IMG/VR virus record: IMGVR_UViG_3300028548_000932 | Location: 1 to 22,465 of that record | Origin: a virus | Length of the DNA stretch: 22,465 nt | Strand: one strand, 5' to 3' | Translations under genes and position numbers: made by a program | Shown: piece by piece, positions 14,632 through 22,465 of the stretch | Numbering within the stretch: the first letter of the stretch is position 1 | How the letters are laid out: each line of letters begins with the position of its first letter | Notes under the pieces: model-generated | Seen by the model: only the letters and a program-made list of their open reading frames with translations | What the model was told of the DNA's origin: nothing | Databases searched by the model: none

Positions 14632-17600
14632 TTATTGGTATACACTTTCTCTTACGGGGATAGGTTTTTTGTATGGGCTTTGTGTGTAGTATTCTTTGGG
14701 TTGTCCCATAGTTTCTGTACTTATAAACCCACCCTTTTCAGGAGTTCTGCTATAAAAATCGTGATCTCCTATAGTAGTAAAGTATTCGTTTCGCAAATTT
14801 GCGTTTAATTTATCTGATGCGTAACCTCTTTTCCCGTAGGTAAACACATCATCTCTAAGTTTAAATTTTTCTCTATCAGGGGACATGTCTAATGCCATAT
14901 CCGCTGCGTCAAGTGCTTTTTGCCAATCTTGGTTGTTAAGCATGTCTTTTAATCTAGGTTTTAAATTTGTAGGCTCAAGACCATCATATGCAAACATACC
15001 AGAACCTCTAGTTGTTCTACCTCTTAAAACATCTTTTATATTACTTAAATTTTTAAACGAATAAGTTTTATCATTAACTCTATTTAGGACTGTTTCTCCT
15101 ACTGCTCTTAACGCTTCTGGAGAATCCTTTTGGACAACTGACTCGGAAAATATAGTAACAGCAAGTGCTTCTCTATCGTCTAGACTGTCTAAAAACTCTG
15201 ACACTTGTGGTCTTGTTCTTGGATCACTGTTCATAAAGGATATAAGTTTTTTTTTAAACTTTGGATTCATCTCTTCAATTATATTCATACCACCTTGATC
15301 ATTTTCATTATTATTCTCAGCTACACCCCCACTATTCATACCTATAAAACCACCCTTTGCTAATTCTACACCTGCAAAAGCTGGGTTGCCTTTAAAAGTT
15401 CTACTTGATCTGTCGGCAGCTTTGTATTGTTGCTTTTTAAATAACATTGTTTCAAAATCTTGTGCCATAACGTCATTAGATATTTGAAACATCTTTTTAA
15501 TTTCAGAAGGGTCTAGTACTCCTGCAAGTGCAGGGTCTATTTGGTAATAAGCCTTGTCTTCTCCACTTACTACGCTAACAATACTTTCTAATCCCATTTC
15601 ATTTTTAATTTTTTCTTCAAAGTCTGACCTATTTTGTGGAGTCATATAATAATTAAAAACTCTTTCAATTTCTTTTGTTAAAACTGAGTTTCCATACTTT
15701 TGTATGTCTTGCTCATTGTCAGAATAGTCCTCGCCTTTACGAAGAGAACCATCTTTAACCATTTCATTTATAATAAGCTTTTTCAGATTGGTTGTATAAT
15801 TTACACCATCTGTAACCATGCTATTAAGAAAGGCTTGATTAACAACAGCTTGAATATACCTATGTTCTGCTTTACCTTCGGCAGTTTCAGGTTTGTCCTC
15901 TAAATTTTCAAGCCCTACAGACGAACTATTAGCACTTGGTAATTTAAAAGAATAATTTGGGTCTTTTGATAATGTATCTGCCCCTTTGTGCATAAGCTCG
16001 TGAGCCATTAGAGATTTACTTAGGTAGTCATCCCCCTTACCATCCAGAGCTATTTTGTTTCTACGAGGAGAATAATATCCTGATGCGTGTCCCATGTCCC
16101 CTTCAAAACCTTTGCCTTTTTTTAATTGGTTTACAAAGTCTGATAAACTTCTTTCATCTCTTAACCCTGCTTGTAACAACTTGTTCCAGCTAGTTTGATT
16201 AAGTAAATCCATGCCTTGTTCAATGTCTCCAAATTCAACTCCCGATTTATACCCTTGCAACTTAGTCGGATTTGGGTCTTCCTTGCTTGCATATTTAGAA
16301 AAGGGAGTTTGAGGATTTGAGTCTATGTTTTTATCTCGTAGGGTAGTTATTTCATTTATTTGCTCGTTAAGTTCATTAACCCGATTGTCTAACTCACTTA
16401 TTTCATCCTCTGGAGATTTTACAGTATCTCTTTCTACTATATCTCCTTCTGCCATCCCAATAAAACCACCTTCTGCTAATCCTTGCTGGGGTGCTATATT
16501 TTGAGGTTGTTCAGCTTCTTGTTGTCTGCGTGATACTTCTTTTTTACCTCGATTGTTTATCTTTTCTAGTTTGTCGTATCCTATCTCTTCGGCAATAGCT
16601 TTAGGAATGTAAACTTCATTTTTTGATACTAGCAATTGAACATTGTCTTTCACGTTCATTTCAGGATTTCCAAATTGTATTTCAACGCCTTTTTCTTGAA
16701 GGTTTGTAATTGCCACAGAAATCATTTCTTCTACATCTTGTTTGCCCATGAACTCTGCTGCAGGAGCATTGATTATAAAATCTCCTTCTTCAGCTTCGAG
16801 GGGCTTATCATCCTTTATTTCTTCTTGGGGAGTTGCTCCTCTATCTTGATCTATAAAACCTGCACCCTGAACAATTTCAGGATTTTGTGTTACAGCATCC
16901 CCCTCTGCCATTTTCTTAGGTACTTTACCCCCCTGTTTAAAATTAAAACTATCATTCATACTTGATGTATCAGGTTGGCTAGGACTATTATCTTCATTAC
17001 TATCAGTACTAAATGTACCTGTTCTACTGTATTGTGAGCCTGTTGGAGCTGCCCCACTTGGATTACCAGAAGCATCGTAAGATGAATATCCTATGCCTGC
17101 TCTGGCTGCTTCAGTAGAACTACCAAAAGCATCTGCAGTAATTCCACCTTTTTCCATTGCTGCTTGAGGGCTAGTAAAACCACGTACATCTAAACCATAT
17201 CCGGGAGTACGGTTGTTTTTGTACTGCCCTCCCCCTTCTTCAGTTAAATCATCTATTCTCGATCTTTCTCTACTCATAGCTTCTTTAAATGTGTTTCCTG
17301 ATAATCCAGAAGAACCTCCAGTAAGGCTAGGCCCAAAATTAATTCCCATAAATTCAAAGCCCGGTTGCATACTAACTAAATTACCATTAAAGTATCCTTG
17401 ATCATAACCTTTAAGTCCTTGTGCCATCTTGTCTGCAACATCGTAGTGAGTACTCATAACAGAAGAAGAAACTGAATTTAACATACCACTGCCCATAGCC
17501 GATCCATCTCCGTAGGGGGTATCCATGCTAGGACCCTTAAGTTGAAAAAGAATACTTGCTGGGCCACTTAAAAGACTACTTATATTTCCTACAGCTTGGG

Positions 17601-18084
17601 CAGCTACTATTTGACCTGAATAAGCAAGTGCTGCGGGAGCTAAATTTAGTATTGCTTGTTGAGTTGCACTAGCATAATACCCAGCTATAGCAGCTCCAAT
17701 GGGATCATTTTTTATAAATTCGTCTTCACCTTTTTGTTTCGCTTTATCAAAAGCTATTTGCCCTGCAGTAGGATTACCATAGCCTGCCCCAGCAATATCT
17801 GTAATTTCATTAGCATCGGATATTGATTGAGAAACTCCTACATTTTCAAATTCAGGGGTGTCCCTATACCTATCAGATGCAGAAACGCCACTTTCTGTTC
17901 TTAAATCACTAATATCACTTACAAGGTTAAAATTTTTAATTGGTTCATCGCCTTGAGCTTGGTTACTCTCATCTATAGTCTCAACGTCAATATTGTTTTG
18001 GGTTAAAGCATCAGCAGACCTTCGACTACTTCTAGCTCTACGCATAAGATTATCAAATTGAGAATTACCCGTACTAAATGCCAT
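14632..18084 (-). CDS. Large mosaic internal virion protein: HEXXH metallopeptidase plus SleB-like wall hydrolase
   Basis: The protein has 1150 residues in blocks separated by Gly-rich linkers. Residues 1-385 are low-complexity and Ala/Ser/Gly-rich with a hydrophobic helix at 128-175. Residues 400-525 contain VYIPKAIAEEIGYDKLEKIN, a block I associate with marine phage virion proteins. Residues 545-905 hold SLMAHELMHKG with HEXXH at 695-699, the zincin zinc-binding motif; the third ligand is unclear, with E740/H741 possible. Residues 966-1112 match cell-wall hydrolase SleB (Hydrolase_2): AVTIFSESV with catalytic-type E981, AVGETVLNRV, and IGDHDFY near the end. Such proteins are ejected with DNA and cut peptidoglycan on entry. 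ATG 18084 overlaps the end of the 76-aa gene, with AAGG upstream. Confidence 0.75.
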   Translation of the reverse strand: MAFSTGNSQFDNLMRRARSSRRSADALTQNNIDVETIDESNQAQGDEPIKNFNLVSDISDLRTESGVSASDRYRDTPEFENVGVSQSISDANEITDIAGAGYGNPTAGQIAFDKAKQKGEDEFIKNDPIGAAIAGYYASATQQAILNLAPAALAYSGQIVAAQAVGNISSLLSGPASILFQLKGPSMDTPYGDGSAMGSGMLNSVSSSVMSTHYDVADKMAQGLKGYDQGYFNGNLVSMQPGFEFMGINFGPSLTGGSSGLSGNTFKEAMSRERSRIDDLTEEGGGQYKNNRTPGYGLDVRGFTSPQAAMEKGGITADAFGSSTEAARAGIGYSSYDASGNPSGAAPTGSQYSRTGTFSTDSNEDNSPSQPDTSSMNDSFNFKQGGKVPKKMAEGDAVTQNPEIVQGAGFIDQDRGATPQEEIKDDKPLEAEEGDFIINAPAAEFMGKQDVEEMISVAITNLQEKGVEIQFGNPEMNVKDNVQLLVSKNEVYIPKAIAEEIGYDKLEKINNRGKKEVSRRQQEAEQPQNIAPQQGLAEGGFIGMAEGDIVERDTVKSPEDEISELDNRVNELNEQINEITTLRDKNIDSNPQTPFSKYASKEDPNPTKLQGYKSGVEFGDIEQGMDLLNQTSWNKLLQAGLRDERSLSDFVNQLKKGKGFEGDMGHASGYYSPRRNKIALDGKGDDYLSKSLMAHELMHKGADTLSKDPNYSFKLPSANSSSVGLENLEDKPETAEGKAEHRYIQAVVNQAFLNSMVTDGVNYTTNLKKLIINEMVKDGSLRKGEDYSDNEQDIQKYGNSVLTKEIERVFNYYMTPQNRSDFEEKIKNEMGLESIVSVVSGEDKAYYQIDPALAGVLDPSEIKKMFQISNDVMAQDFETMLFKKQQYKAADRSSRTFKGNPAFAGVELAKGGFIGMNSGGVAENNNENDQGGMNIIEEMNPKFKKKLISFMNSDPRTRPQVSEFLDSLDDREALAVTIFSESVVQKDSPEALRAVGETVLNRVNDKTYSFKNLSNIKDVLRGRTTRGSGMFAYDGLEPTNLKPRLKDMLNNQDWQKALDAADMALDMSPDREKFKLRDDVFTYGKRGYASDKLNANLRNEYFTTIGDHDFYSRTPEKGGFISTETMGQPKEYYTQSPYKKPIPVRESVYQ
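15325..15360 (-). repeat. Linker repeat, second full copy (AKGGFIGMNSGG)
   Basis: Encodes residues 909-920 of the 1150-aa protein, between the metallopeptidase block and the SleB-like domain. It shares GGFIGM with the copy at 16441-16476. Confidence 0.55.
16441..16476 (-). repeat. Linker repeat, first full copy (AEGGFIGMAEGD)
   Basis: Encodes residues 537-548 of the 1150-aa protein, just before the metallopeptidase block. A partial relative, GGKVPKKMAEGD, lies at residues 385-396. Confidence 0.55.
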
Positions 18085-18304
18085 TATTATTCTTAACCTT
18101 TTCTACGTTACTCTTGAGACTGAGTAGGGTTTCCAGTAAAACCAGCTTCCCCTGCAGCTGGCGTAGCTCCGACTCCGATTGGGCCATCGCCAGCCCCTTG
18201 ACCGTTAGGTCCTTGAGGTCGTTGAGGTACTCCTCCAGCCCCTGCCATATTTGGGGGTTGTTGACTAGGGGGGCCACCTTCGCCGCCTGCTCCTTGTTGA
18301 ACAT
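18074..18304 (-). CDS. Small helical protein overprinted on the portal gene
   Basis: A 76-residue frame lies out of frame over the last 197 nt of the portal gene and ends 11 nt inside the 1150-aa gene. It encodes MFNKEQAAKVAPLVNNP, then IWQGLEEYLNDLKDL, ESELRQLQGKLVLLETLL and SLKSNVEKVKNNNGI. The 'L...LE.YL..L.....G.A.A....ELR.LQGkl..LetLL.L...V' pattern is that of a helical protein often found just after phage portals. A balanced helical composition argues for real coding. An AAGGG-like SD lies about 12 nt upstream of ATG 18304. The segment is much richer in GC than its surroundings. Likely a head-assembly accessory protein of unknown detail. Confidence 0.75.
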   Translation of the reverse strand: MFNKEQAAKVAPLVNNPQIWQGLEEYLNDLKDLTVKGLAMAQSESELRQLQGKLVLLETLLSLKSNVEKVKNNNGI

Positions 18305-20240
18305 TCTGTTGCATCCCTTTCAATATTTCTGCATAGACCTGTGCTTCGTTAACGTCATTAACTAAACTGTCTGGATCAATGTCTTGCGATATGGCAAGCT
18401 CTCTCATTAAATTTGGTATCTTAACAAACGGTGCAAGAGTTGGATTCATAACCGTTTGCAACAACGCTGTTAATCTCTGACTTCTTACTTCTTTTTGCAT
18501 TACTGCTGCAACACCACGAGGTTTGATTTCTAAGTCCCCCTCTATGTCTTCAGCGTCTTCATTAAACTGCATGTTCCATTGGAAGTAAGCTTCTCCCATT
18601 GGTTTTAATAAGTAGTCGTCTATATTTTTTATTACTGTTTTCATTGCCAAGCCTGCAGAACCCATTAGCATCGATAAGCCTGACGCTGTTCTTCCTGTGC
18701 CTGAAACTCCAGTTTGTCCGTGTATAATAGAAGGTATACCTGTTTCTTCATCAGCAAGTTGGCGAGCTATTTGATACATCTGTATGTTTTCGCCTGCTGT
18801 GTTAGGAAACTTAAGTCCATTGATAGCAGTTCCTGTTACCCCAGACTGTCTTCGGAATATCTTACCGGGAAAGATGTCCATGTTTTGTCCGGGAACTAAA
18901 CTAGCTTCATCTACGTCAAAGACTAAGTTACCTGCAAGTGCTAAGTTATCAATAGCCATTCTTACGTGACCATTCATAAGCATCTGGGCATCTTCCATAT
19001 TTTCTGCTACACCAACTCCCCACATTTGATAAGGATTAATTTCAAACGGGAATACTTGATAAGGTATTCTAGATGGTGTAAATGGGTTAAGGACACATCT
19101 TAATATTATTGTACCACATACCCACACATTTACAGGTATCTGATCTAAGGTAGATATTCCTTGTGGTAATTGTAAGCCTGCTTCGTCAGCAAACTTAGCA
19201 TCAATAACTCCCCAATATTCAAGAACCTCAAACCTATTTTCTTGATAGTATGGTTCAGTCTCATCTTCACGGATAGTATCTTCATAGTATTTATCTTCGT
19301 AGTTAGGGCCTTTTGCTAAACAGTCTTCTATAGCCACAGAGTCAAAGTGTGGTCTTTGTGTTAGACCTCTAAGCTGTTGTCTGTTCATACGATGTCTTTG
19401 TATAACGTACTCACAGTCTTCAATACTAGTTGCTGATGGGTCTGGGTGAAAGTCCCAAACAGAAACTGACTCTATTCTAGGTACTGCTTTTTCGTAGGGA
19501 GTGTATTCTCTTTCTCCCTCTTCAGTTCTTTGCCACTTATGAACCTTTTTATTAAAGTTAAAAGGTCCTTTGACTATACCTGTTCCAAGCAACGATGCTT
19601 CAAATATAGCGTGACGAAACACATTGACTGCATTACTATCTAGTAACTGATCGTGTATCATGTGTTCCATGTTCAGTGCGGCTTGAGCTGCAGGACTTAT
19701 CTGAGGTTCTCCTAACCTAGCAGGACCTTCGGCAAGTGGTGCGTTTGGAAACTTACCAGCTATACCACCTAAAAAATCCATAGAAGGCGTTGCTTGAGTT
19801 GCTCCCGGAGGTAGCTCTCTTCCATCTCCTTCATAACCATATGAGTCTTGAGGTGGTATTGCGTCATCTAGAGGTGTCTTTAGATGAGCAAACTTTGCAA
19901 TACCTTCAGGCACAGGTGTTGATTCTACAACAATAGGAAACTTCTTGTTGGCAAACAATATGTCAACAATCTGCCCATATGCTGCAAGAACTTTAGTTTT
20001 GGTTATTCTAACAAATACTTTTGATCTCTCAGAGTCACGATACTGAGTTGTAGAGTCATATATACCACGAAAGTTTTTGTAGGCTTGTAGCCACCTTTGT
20101 TCGTGGGAACGTCTACCATTTTCGGAATCTTCAAATCTACTCTTTACGTATCCTGCTAGTCCGGGCATAATCTCTGCTGCGTTGGACATAGGGATACTTT
20201 CGGAGGACTCTTCGTCTGAGTTTAAAAAGTTATCAGCCAT
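18108..20240 (-). CDS. Portal protein
   Basis: This is a 710-residue portal, the dodecameric ring at the head vertex through which DNA is packaged. Supporting blocks are the N-terminal RRSHEQRWLQAYKNFRGIYD (43-62), KVFVRITKTKVLAAYGQIVD (74-93), VWDFHPDPSATSIEDCEYVI (261-280), NPYQMWGVGVAENMEDAQ (402-419) and GRTASGLSMLMGSAG (516-530). The size is close to P22-type portals. From N646 to the end the chain becomes a Gly/Pro/Gln tail with 18 Gly and 10 Pro in 65 residues. That tail coincides exactly with the overprinted 76-aa frame. ATG 20240 has AAGG upstream, 12 nt after the previous stop. Confidence 0.9.
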   Translation of the reverse strand: MADNFLNSDEESSESIPMSNAAEIMPGLAGYVKSRFEDSENGRRSHEQRWLQAYKNFRGIYDSTTQYRDSERSKVFVRITKTKVLAAYGQIVDILFANKKFPIVVESTPVPEGIAKFAHLKTPLDDAIPPQDSYGYEGDGRELPPGATQATPSMDFLGGIAGKFPNAPLAEGPARLGEPQISPAAQAALNMEHMIHDQLLDSNAVNVFRHAIFEASLLGTGIVKGPFNFNKKVHKWQRTEEGEREYTPYEKAVPRIESVSVWDFHPDPSATSIEDCEYVIQRHRMNRQQLRGLTQRPHFDSVAIEDCLAKGPNYEDKYYEDTIREDETEPYYQENRFEVLEYWGVIDAKFADEAGLQLPQGISTLDQIPVNVWVCGTIILRCVLNPFTPSRIPYQVFPFEINPYQMWGVGVAENMEDAQMLMNGHVRMAIDNLALAGNLVFDVDEASLVPGQNMDIFPGKIFRRQSGVTGTAINGLKFPNTAGENIQMYQIARQLADEETGIPSIIHGQTGVSGTGRTASGLSMLMGSAGLAMKTVIKNIDDYLLKPMGEAYFQWNMQFNEDAEDIEGDLEIKPRGVAAVMQKEVRSQRLTALLQTVMNPTLAPFVKIPNLMRELAISQDIDPDSLVNDVNEAQVYAEILKGMQQNVQQGAGGEGGPPSQQPPNMAGAGGVPQRPQGPNGQGAGDGPIGVGATPAAGEAGFTGNPTQSQE

Positions 20241-20252
20241 GTTTTACCTTAC

Positions 20253-20471
20253 TTAGAAGTAGTTTCTGTCGTCAGCCATTTTAAACAAAGAAGCTTCTAC
20301 TGTTGGCTTAGACTGTTTCTTTGGAGTCATAGCGTTTAGTTCAGTTATCTGACTGTTAGACGTATCAAAATCTTTACCTTCACGAGTTAATGGTGCGTCT
20401 GGTGCAGTGTAGGATGTTTTATCAGCGTTCATTATATATGAAGGACCGTAGTTATAGTTATTGTCTGGCAT
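20253..20471 (-). CDS. Small hypothetical protein (72 aa)
   Basis: The start is the ATG at 20471, with AGGAG 7 nt upstream. An upstream extension into the end of the 612-aa gene is open but has no SD of its own. The protein begins MPDNNYNYGPSYIMNAD and contains YTAPDAPLTREGKDFD, NSQITELNAMTPKKQS and a C-terminal ASLFKMADDRNYF. It is hydrophilic, probably mostly unstructured, with no cysteine or membrane segment. It lies between the recombinase-domain protein and the portal. I do not recognise a family; a virion or head-assembly accessory is suggested by position only. Confidence 0.65.
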   Translation of the reverse strand: MPDNNYNYGPSYIMNADKTSYTAPDAPLTREGKDFDTSNSQITELNAMTPKKQSKPTVEASLFKMADDRNYF

Positions 20472-20490: not shown

Positions 20491-22329
20491 TTACATAATT
20501 CCCTGTGCTTCAGGGACTTTCTTACGTAGAAGATCACCCATTTGTTGATCCATTGCGTAATTCATTGGTCGAGCTTCACTTTCCTTTTTTTCAGGGATGT
20601 TTAAAGGCTCAATATTTTCGTTTCCTAAATTAGTGTCATTTGCAATAACATCCATAGCCCCAGCTTCAGCCATCTGTCTTTCCATTTCTGGGTCACGATA
20701 TCCTGTTCTATCTGGGGTGTCGCCTGCTGGACTTGATTGCATAGCAAACCCCACTGCAGCTCCCGGACCTAATCCTAAGCTTCTTTCGAGAAGAAGTTCA
20801 GTCCCTATGTTTTGGGCTGCTTCAGCAGGGTTGGTTATAATCTGTCTGGCTGTTTCTATTCCTACTGCACCAACTAAAGCTTTTGTTCCTTTGTCTTTTA
20901 ATACATCCCAAGCTTTACTAAACGCTGACTTAGTCACTGCGTCTAACACAATAGCAGAACCCTTTGGTGGTATTTTCTTCTTAGGTTCTTTTGCAATTGG
21001 TTTCTTATCAGGCATCAACTCATTTACTTGGTTAGACAACGCTGTTAATCTAGCCACTGATTTATTTAAATTAGTTAACTTACCTTCAACTTTGTCTGTT
21101 AGGGCATCCACAGTTACACTAACGTCTGCCGCTGTGCCATCAAGTTGTAAATTTGTACTTCTTTGTGTGTTAGATACTACATCAGTAGGAGCATCAAAAA
21201 TGATTGCTGTTTTTTCTTTGAAGAAAGTTTCGTTAAAGCCATATGTCTTATACACCTCTTTTGGATTTGTTTGACCTATATCCTGAAGATACATGTTTCC
21301 AAATTCTTCTGCAGCTCTTTGCGTTAAGCTCATTTTCTTTCTTGATTCTCTGTCAACCTTGTAGTGAGTTAATCCTACGTCACCTCTTGTGGAGTGACCT
21401 AACACTAAGTTAGCTACACCAGAACCAGAACTCTCATTTATAGCATCAAAAACATTCTTTCTTAAATCAGATATAGTAAAAGGTATTTTTTTATTAGTTT
21501 TTTGATCAGTAATTGATAAGCCCATTTCTGACATGGACTCATTCATAGCATTGTTAACTATTGTTCTTAGTTTCTGCTCAGACTGAGTAAACAAACGTAT
21601 TGATTTTTTATCCCCCATTCTACCTTTAGCATCCGTTCCTAAATCAGCTAAGATATCTTGGGCTAAAGAAGGTAGTTGATAATTTGTTTTGTTACCTTTG
21701 TTACTTATGCCAAACAAAGTGTTTGATCCGGGATCAAGCGTTCCATACGCAGAGTTTTCAACTGCTTCACCCACCGTGATATTTATTAAGTCTTTATTTC
21801 TTATTCCAAGTAAATGTTTTAATTGAAAAAGAGATGCCGCTTCTTTATTGCCCTTAAGCTTTAAAGTAGTCATGTGTATGGCTTTATTTAAATCCTCGAT
21901 AGAAGGCAACGTAATTTTTTTAGCTGCTGCATCTCCTCTAGGTTGTGTGGCTTTATCAAATCTTAATTTTGTTGGGTCTTTACTATCCATAGCAACTCTT
22001 ATAGTTCCTATTTGAGCTTTAAACCTATTAGTGTAAGGGGCTTTAAAATCTTCTGCTGCAGCTCGTTTAAATAAACCTGACTCAACTTTACCTAAAGTTA
22101 CGTAGTCACCACTTTTCTCTGTTGTTAATTTATTAAAGACATCATGCTTATTTCTGTCGCCCATAGTCTCCCAGTTATCATCTAAGCTAAAACCAGAATC
22201 CTCAAGCCTTTTTAACAACGAAGATTTATTACCTTTGTTATCATATAGTTTTACGTCTGGTCTACCTAATTCAAAAGCTTCAGCTATTGTTAAGTTACCA
22301 TCTTGTAATTTTTGTATTAGTTCATCCAT
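20491..22329 (-). CDS. Tyrosine-recombinase-domain protein with virion-like C-terminal extension
   Basis: The protein has 612 residues. Residues 140-330 carry the signatures of a tyrosine recombinase: LKHLLGIRNKDLINITVGE (Arg I, R177), ISNKGNK (beta-hairpin Lys, K211 or K214), ISDLRKNVFDAI (Arg II, R290, with Ser in place of the usual His), LVLGHS (H312) and THYK (nucleophile Y323). The catalytic set is otherwise complete. Residues 85-140 may be a diverged core-binding domain. Residues 340-612 are unlike integrases: a helical block, a Pro/Lys linker (450-456), an Ala/Gly-rich hydrophobic block (485-530) and an acidic tail. ATG 22329 follows the terminase stop by 3 nt. Position among packaging genes and the extension suggest a virion-linked role instead of a free integrase. 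Confidence 0.7.
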   Translation of the reverse strand: MDELIQKLQDGNLTIAEAFELGRPDVKLYDNKGNKSSLLKRLEDSGFSLDDNWETMGDRNKHDVFNKLTTEKSGDYVTLGKVESGLFKRAAAEDFKAPYTNRFKAQIGTIRVAMDSKDPTKLRFDKATQPRGDAAAKKITLPSIEDLNKAIHMTTLKLKGNKEAASLFQLKHLLGIRNKDLINITVGEAVENSAYGTLDPGSNTLFGISNKGNKTNYQLPSLAQDILADLGTDAKGRMGDKKSIRLFTQSEQKLRTIVNNAMNESMSEMGLSITDQKTNKKIPFTISDLRKNVFDAINESSGSGVANLVLGHSTRGDVGLTHYKVDRESRKKMSLTQRAAEEFGNMYLQDIGQTNPKEVYKTYGFNETFFKEKTAIIFDAPTDVVSNTQRSTNLQLDGTAADVSVTVDALTDKVEGKLTNLNKSVARLTALSNQVNELMPDKKPIAKEPKKKIPPKGSAIVLDAVTKSAFSKAWDVLKDKGTKALVGAVGIETARQIITNPAEAAQNIGTELLLERSLGLGPGAAVGFAMQSSPAGDTPDRTGYRDPEMERQMAEAGAMDVIANDTNLGNENIEPLNIPEKKESEARPMNYAMDQQMGDLLRKKVPEAQGIM

Positions 22330-22332
22330 TTA

Positions 22333-22465
22333 TTAATATCCAAATGTTTCATTCTGTACTTGGTATACCTGAGCCTTGATGCCATTAAGCGTTTGATGAA
22401 TCGAAGCATAACCTGTCATTCTTGTCATTAACATATATCTTAACGCATCGTATGCGTGATCTTCA
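22333..22465 (-). CDS. terL: Terminase large subunit, C-terminal 44 residues (partial)
   Basis: The open frame enters from the right edge and ends in TAA at 22333-22335. It reads EDHAYDALRYMLMTRMTGYA and ends FGY. The EDHAYDALRY block is the well-known C-terminal end of the large terminase nuclease domain, with the Asp residues that help bind metal. Its place just upstream of the portal region fits the packaging motor, which cuts concatemeric DNA and pumps it through the portal. The ATPase and most of the nuclease lie outside the window. Confidence 0.85.
   Translation of the reverse strand, partial: EDHAYDALRYMLMTRMTGYASIHQTLNGIKAQVYQVQNETFGY

Follow-up and report, generated by a model that had tools for sequence, protein, structure and literature searches.

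A predicted tyrosine recombinase with a long C-terminal tail is encoded between terL and the portal gene, and replaced as a cassette, in uncultured HMO-2011-type phages

Tyrosine recombinases of the PF00589 superfamily, such as lambda Int, Brujita Int, XerA and Tn1549 Int, share a two-domain fold and catalytic Arg, Lys, Arg, His and Tyr residues that occur in this order. The box II His is common among these enzymes but not universal, and the protelomerases (telomere resolvases), which go with a cognate hairpin-telomere site and a linear plasmid prophage, fall in a size range similar to that of the protein described here. HMO-2011-type phages are reported to be among the dominant marine viral groups; the main survey of them describes no integrases other than those upstream of the replication module, and takes members that lack an early int to be probably strictly lytic (PMC9038755). 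A tyrosine recombinase is also encoded by phiCbK, a phage without known lysogeny, where gp143 (208 aa) consists of the catalytic core only and belongs to the replication module (PMC3556154). The MrpR (YopR) and SroF repressors of SPbeta-like phages have the same fold, MrpR having lost most of the catalytic residues (PMC10516654). Finally, the ejection proteins of podoviruses (T7 gp14-16 and P22 gp7/16/20 types), which like the gene described here are encoded among head genes, are highly diverged and mosaic, with functional domains that are swapped (PMC8954989). In the literature searched we found nothing on a tyrosine recombinase that is encoded next to terL or packaged in virions, nor on a tailed recombinase at the terL-portal junction that undergoes allele replacement; the enzyme class itself is known.

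The terL-portal locus and the phage that carries it

The 22,465-base stretch of viral DNA analyzed here (the window) is filled by a phage late region, in which a gene for a 612-aa protein lies between terL and the portal gene (Table 1). The first-pass annotation had placed this gene 3 nt after terL and before the portal. The ORF, the terL end and the PF23899 portal match confirm this arrangement: the distance from the terL stop to the start codon of the gene is 3 nt, and the terL-type C-terminus upstream, which ends in EDHAYDALRYMLMTRMTGYASIHQTLNGIKAQVYQVQNETFGY and a stop, agrees with the full TerLs of relatives. The intergenic DNA between the gene and the portal is conserved across the types described below. 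Downstream of the portal the window encodes a large protein and then the major capsid protein, and the gene order in the window and in relatives places the 612-aa gene in a head/packaging operon. The post-portal protein (1150 aa, 14632-18084 on the minus strand) shows weak matches to a cell-wall hydrolase (PF07486) and a metallopeptidase (DUF6782) and carries three GGFI motifs; it is possibly a candidate internal virion protein.

Table 1. Position of the recombinase gene, its parts and its neighbors in the window
Feature	Position	Strand	Basis or remark
Fusion gene, tyrosine recombinase plus C-terminal tail	20491..22329	-	612-aa ORF; IMG/VR relatives at same locus
terL 3' end, cut by window edge	22333..22465	-	window sequence; full TerL in L024 and others
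Small conserved ORF (about 72 aa) in gap between recombinase gene and portal	20253..20471	-	start codon inferred
Portal gene, SU10-type	18108..20240	-	PF23899, E 2e-29
Helical N-terminal domain, residues 1-100	22030..22329	-	counterpart of core-binding domain of tyrosine recombinases; pLDDT ~70-92
Catalytic domain, residues 135-350	21280..21927	-	VIA-align; encloses the first-pass annotation's 21340-21912
Tail, residues 371-612	20494..21219	-	low-confidence model; tails common to different recombinase types
R177, box I arginine	21799..21801	-	18/18 and 23/23 in two alignments
K211, predicted beta-hairpin lysine	21697..21699	-	invariant in 16-row alignment
S287-D-L-R290, box II, Ser for His	21460..21471	-	R290 kept
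H312, box III histidine	21394..21396	-	18/18 in H-type members; other types Arg
Y323, predicted nucleophile	21361..21363	-	18/18

Identity between the TerL of a close relative and those of HMO-2011-type phages (Roseobacter CRP phages, Pelagibacter phages and HMO-2011) is 49-56%, and the DNA polymerases of two long relatives contain two CXXCXGXG motifs, a pair that is a hallmark of this type (PMC9038755). On these sequence marks the window phage is assigned to the HMO-2011 type; judging from relatives, its host might be one of the marine Alphaproteobacteria. In two independent contigs of the long relatives a pair of overlapping ORFs, each in its own frame, encodes the polymerase (L112:18382-19953(-) with the start of L113; L115:15969-17537(-) and 17467-18102(-)), giving an exonuclease part of about 211-217 aa and a polymerase part of about 522-525 aa, where CRP-3 has one gene of 705 aa; a frameshift or a split gene is possible. 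Both long relatives also encode a C5-cytosine DNA methyltransferase (PF00145) in a strand-switch region (L113:3570-4739(+) and L116:1402-2562(+)).

Fold, catalytic residues and tail of the 612-aa protein

Profile searches with the window protein by itself yielded little. A Pfam search gave no PF00589 match, and its weak matches to ADH_zinc_N and Baculo_PEP_C, both below cut-off, were dismissed; the phrog_216 integrase profile reached only E 0.06, a PDB sequence search with the protein as query returned no match, and the family profile searched against PDB reached lambda Int at E 0.2 only. Among the 16 cluster representatives at the same locus, six match PF00589 (best 5e-9) and five the phrog_1 integrase profile (best 3e-15). 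We obtained two AlphaFold models, one of the full protein (mean pLDDT 53.5, with the tail mostly below 50) and one of residues 1-395 (69.6). In the latter the catalytic core mostly has pLDDT values of 75-91, the hairpin stretch is weaker (58-64), and the loop bearing the Tyr is modeled with low confidence (about 35-45). In Foldseek searches the top 19 matches of the full model and the top 33 of the domain model are all tyrosine recombinases or the integrase-fold repressor YopR/MrpR; for both models the best structural matches include lambda Int as well as Xer, integron and transposon integrases, and the Foldseek probability is 1.00 for lambda Int, XerA and IntI4. VIA-align superposed 158 residues on Brujita Int (Z 13.8, rmsd 2.9) and matched the archaeal Xer 4a8e with Z 12.5. 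Superpositions that take in both domains, from model residue 12 to 328, were obtained with lambda Int, Tn1549 Int and IntI4. A two-domain tyrosine recombinase occupies residues ~1-350, with a tail of about 240 residues behind it.

An MAFFT alignment of 18 homologs with a box III His (H-type), drawn from about 10 types, has just six invariant columns: M1, T14 (18/18, in the N-terminal domain), R177, F247, H312 and Y323. The residues R177, K211, R290, H312 and Y323, read from the sequence in the first-pass annotation, are all present as described, and R177, R290, H312 and Y323 are conserved in homologs. Three of the six invariant columns are residues named beforehand (hypergeometric p 3.7e-5, an approximate value that sets six named residues against six columns, alignment programs slightly favoring such overlaps). 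Of the two lysines proposed, K211 and K214, it is K211 that is invariant; it lies at the predicted hairpin turn of the model, between strands 204-210 and 213-218, and in the other types the corresponding Lys was placed by motif only. R290 is conserved to at least 90% in a related alignment, and the box II Arg position holds Arg in 15 of the 16 types and Gln in one. When all types were aligned globally, box II came out misplaced in the members with a box III Arg (R-type), and for this reason their box residues were assigned by motif and then checked within subgroups; the H-type result is independent of this misplacement. The box I Arg, box II Arg and Tyr occur in the order typical of the superfamily, the motif-assigned spacing of boxes II and III is 22-25 across types (22 from R290 to H312, against 23 in CRP-3 Int), and the Tyr lies 9-21 residues past box III in 16/16 types.

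The Ser in place of the box II His had been taken as a sign that activity may be altered. This is a weak argument, because by motif assignment the box II His is absent from all 16 types and it is also missing from the canonical integrase (R305) of Roseobacter phage CRP-3, a phage reported to integrate (PMC9038755). The latter enzyme, gp02 (357 aa), thus shares phage group, superfamily and this feature with the window protein; it differs in being tail-less and encoded upstream of the replication module, and shows no detectable alignment to the types at this locus beyond the level of the fold. HHalign comparisons of each type with canonical CRP-3-like integrases gave no useful information, the profile being too narrow. 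Measured against the superfamily as a whole, the window protein has the two-domain fold and the ordered catalytic residues, and departs from it in its terL-portal site, 240-residue tail, box II Ser and lack of a PF00589 match of its own.

Comparisons among members of one type gave dN/dS values of 0.05-0.23 in the recombinase part and 0.09-0.41 in the tail, indicating strong purifying selection on the former. Models and alignments together support the earlier proposal of a tyrosine recombinase domain within a protein of the virion operon, structure prediction having returned this fold, and indicate that the gene between terL and portal encodes a tyrosine recombinase. The conservation of catalytic residues under purifying selection further argues for an active enzyme.

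The extension with an Ala/Gly-rich hydrophobic block, also described previously, corresponds to a tail of about 240-280 residues. It comprises a predicted helix (400-437), a Lys-rich linker (447-456), the Ala/Gly block (~510-530) and a conserved MNYAMDQQM end. The block is mildly hydrophobic: the most hydrophobic 19-mer of the window protein is at 512-530, and that of 17/18 representatives falls in the same block. Of 34 members, 23 carry a GF[IVL] motif within their final 90 residues, where shuffled sequences would give 1.6; the window protein's own tail is among those lacking it. Among 174 ORFs GGF[IV] is restricted to these recombinase-tail genes and the gene after the portal, and in ctYwJ313 two GF[IVL] motifs stand at the end of the post-portal protein. 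The common GF motifs might be a faint hint of a shared destination, perhaps the virion. The tail is best explained as a module typical of the terL-portal locus rather than of recombinases.

Fixed position and cassette exchange

Our initial set consisted of 25 related loci from IMG/VR viral contigs. In three of them (L023-L025) homology is confined to the C-terminal part, a different N-terminal part occupying the same position; hence, we searched with the C-terminal end of terL. This recovered 64 contigs; in each of the 61 that extend far enough downstream an ORF begins 3-5 nt past terL, so the fusion proposed for this site recurs beside terL in related contigs. Complete ORFs at the locus encode 545-760 aa, the portal follows wherever the contig extends that far, and the 55 complete proteins fall into 16 clusters. 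When the recombinase parts of two other types were used as queries, without terL, 23/23 checked matches likewise lay directly after terL; the gene sits between terL and portal in every carrier examined. With four different members as query no homolog was found among 50,697 phage records, and no cultured carrier was found.

In HMO-2011, CRP-2 and CRP-3 the portal directly follows terL and the recombinase gene is absent; HTVC115P and HTVC033P have only small ORFs at the junction, and ctYwJ313 has one ORF of 660 bp. Among the HMO-type portal matches listed, terL directly abuts the portal in 62 of the 74 loci with a terL end, and five loci have a gene for 540-655 aa at the junction. Given that cultured phages lack the gene and that terL and portal are adjacent in these 62 loci, the recombinase-tail protein is not a required ejection protein. 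In another HMO-2011-type contig (L246) the junction holds a 165-aa HNH endonuclease-like protein, and hence it may be an insertion hot spot. A further contig (L244:2961-3977(+)) has a 338-aa ORF there with a hydrophobic C-terminal part and without recombinase boxes; by eye it resembled a recombinase-free tail, but homology to the tails found no support with phmmer, and the ORF carries no weight in the conclusions here.

The locus is home to at least 16 recombinase types that have next to no relation to one another. Between types identity is 95-100% over the last 150 residues of TerL and 60-99% over the first 150 of the portal, whereas the median for the recombinase part is 24%. For 288 pairs of different type DNA similarity stops, in the median, 5 bp into the gene and returns 6.5 bp past its stop codon. 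Since dN/dS is low within types, the difference between them reflects replacement rather than decay. These comparisons depict a hypervariable terL-portal locus, at which the recombinase is swapped as a cassette. Nested within this is a second exchange, by which recombinase and tail types are reshuffled. L023 and L013 match at 96% through terL and the opening ~65 bp of the gene, cannot be aligned over the following ~1.5 kb, and return to 96% identity across its last ~320 bp and beyond; in L250 a recombinase of the CL1 type (E 2.5e-111) is fused to a tail like that of the window protein (E 3e-10), and the pairs L053/L096 and L051/L076 show the same modularity. Where tails are common to different recombinase types portal similarity is higher (0.88 vs 0.68), an association that may be mere genetic linkage.

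Possible roles of the recombinase

The reading we tentatively prefer, though we give it somewhat less than an even chance, is that of a catalytically competent, target-diversified recombinase made with the packaging proteins, possibly carried in the virion and acting on the incoming genome. Judging from its position in the operon, the recombinase-tail protein would be translated late, together with the packaging and head genes; the tail would bring it to the portal/TerL region or into the particle as this is assembled, and the recombinase would enter the next cell along with the phage DNA. There it could act at once on the incoming genome, most likely by integration or circularization, at a target that depends on the allele. 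Replacement of whole recombinase or recombinase-plus-tail cassettes between otherwise near-identical phages would, we propose, be explained by the new DNA target that comes with each new allele. The target of a swapped recombinase must need no rebuilding elsewhere in the phage genome, and so would be part of the cassette itself, of host DNA or of other foreign DNA; host DNA is the preferred candidate, because no conserved site inside the recombinase part, no tRNA and, in one pattern scan, no provirus were found.

Where the gene lies, and the tail that it encodes, suggest that the protein is made with the particle and possibly delivered along with the genome. A more specific version, in which we place less confidence, is a virion-delivered cargo system of one marine lineage: a dedicated C-terminal tail would load the recombinase, unrelated recombinase modules would be swapped on that tail, and the injected enzyme and its target would change while the particle does not. 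Here the likeness to podovirus ejection proteins extends to the most hydrophobic segment of the protein being in its tail; unlike them, the recombinase-tail gene is absent from infective HMO-2011-type isolates.

The strongest competitor, which we nevertheless consider unlikely, is an ordinary integrase oddly placed, which serves lysogeny, is expressed in the cell and remains unpackaged, its int cassettes being swapped to change attB. Active-site conservation, the two-domain fold and the observed cassette replacement all fit such an enzyme, as does the lack of a second integrase in the 47-kb and 39-kb relatives (both incomplete contigs), and some HMO-2011-type phages are temperate (PMC9038755). 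However, known integrases of this group are tail-less proteins of ~357 aa encoded upstream of the replication module, whereas here a long tail is retained with every recombinase type and the gene lies at the terL-portal junction in every case examined, rather than in a lysogeny or early module with attP alongside. No recognizable phage repressor was found in the two incomplete contigs, no tRNA was found that could bear an att site, and one exact pattern scan of species-representative genomes returned no provirus, its match L109 being a chance one on a non-phage contig. The sole regulator-like match was that of one early ORF among L112/L113/L115/L116 to Penicillinase_R (PF03965, 3e-5). Because the swap stops at the gene's own boundaries, a flanking attP could not be exchanged with it and any co-swapped attP would have to be intragenic; synonymous-site suppression, found mainly at both gene ends where they border conserved neighbors, does not mark such a site inside the recombinase part.

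A late resolvase, which would separate dimers and concatemers or process replication intermediates no later than packaging, would suit the packaging-operon position, and the same role was proposed for the recombinase of the lytic phage phiCbK (PMC3556154). We regard this as improbable: such an enzyme needs its own site in the phage genome, yet unrelated alleles occur in collinear genomes with TerL ends at least 95% identical, and most relatives do without the gene. Still less probable is a catalysis-free, recombinase-fold DNA-binding protein with a structural or regulatory part, akin to MrpR and SroF. Both of these are among the structural matches, the box II His is absent and the box II Arg is lost in one type; but MrpR is without most catalytic residues, and here R177, H312 and Y323 are invariant in diverged members. 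The domesticated DNA-binding fold raised in the first-pass annotation is thus disfavored, because Arg, Lys, His/Arg and Tyr are kept in near-unrelated alleles under purifying selection. The least probable reading, a counter-weapon aimed at rival phages, prophages or plasmids that share the infected cell, would explain as an arms race the extreme allele turnover between conserved flanks and is compatible with the lack of the gene in most of the wider phage group, but nothing specific to conflict systems was found in the neighborhood and no target is known.

If the recombinase is active, as under the preferred reading of a competent enzyme made with the packaging proteins, the inference that members of this group without an early int are probably strictly lytic may not hold for this lineage. 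A recombinase brought in by the particle, if that is indeed what the locus encodes, would act as the DNA enters and need no new synthesis, an unusual arrangement. Finally, with its many naturally diversified modules on comparable scaffolds, the locus is a source of new site-specific recombinases.
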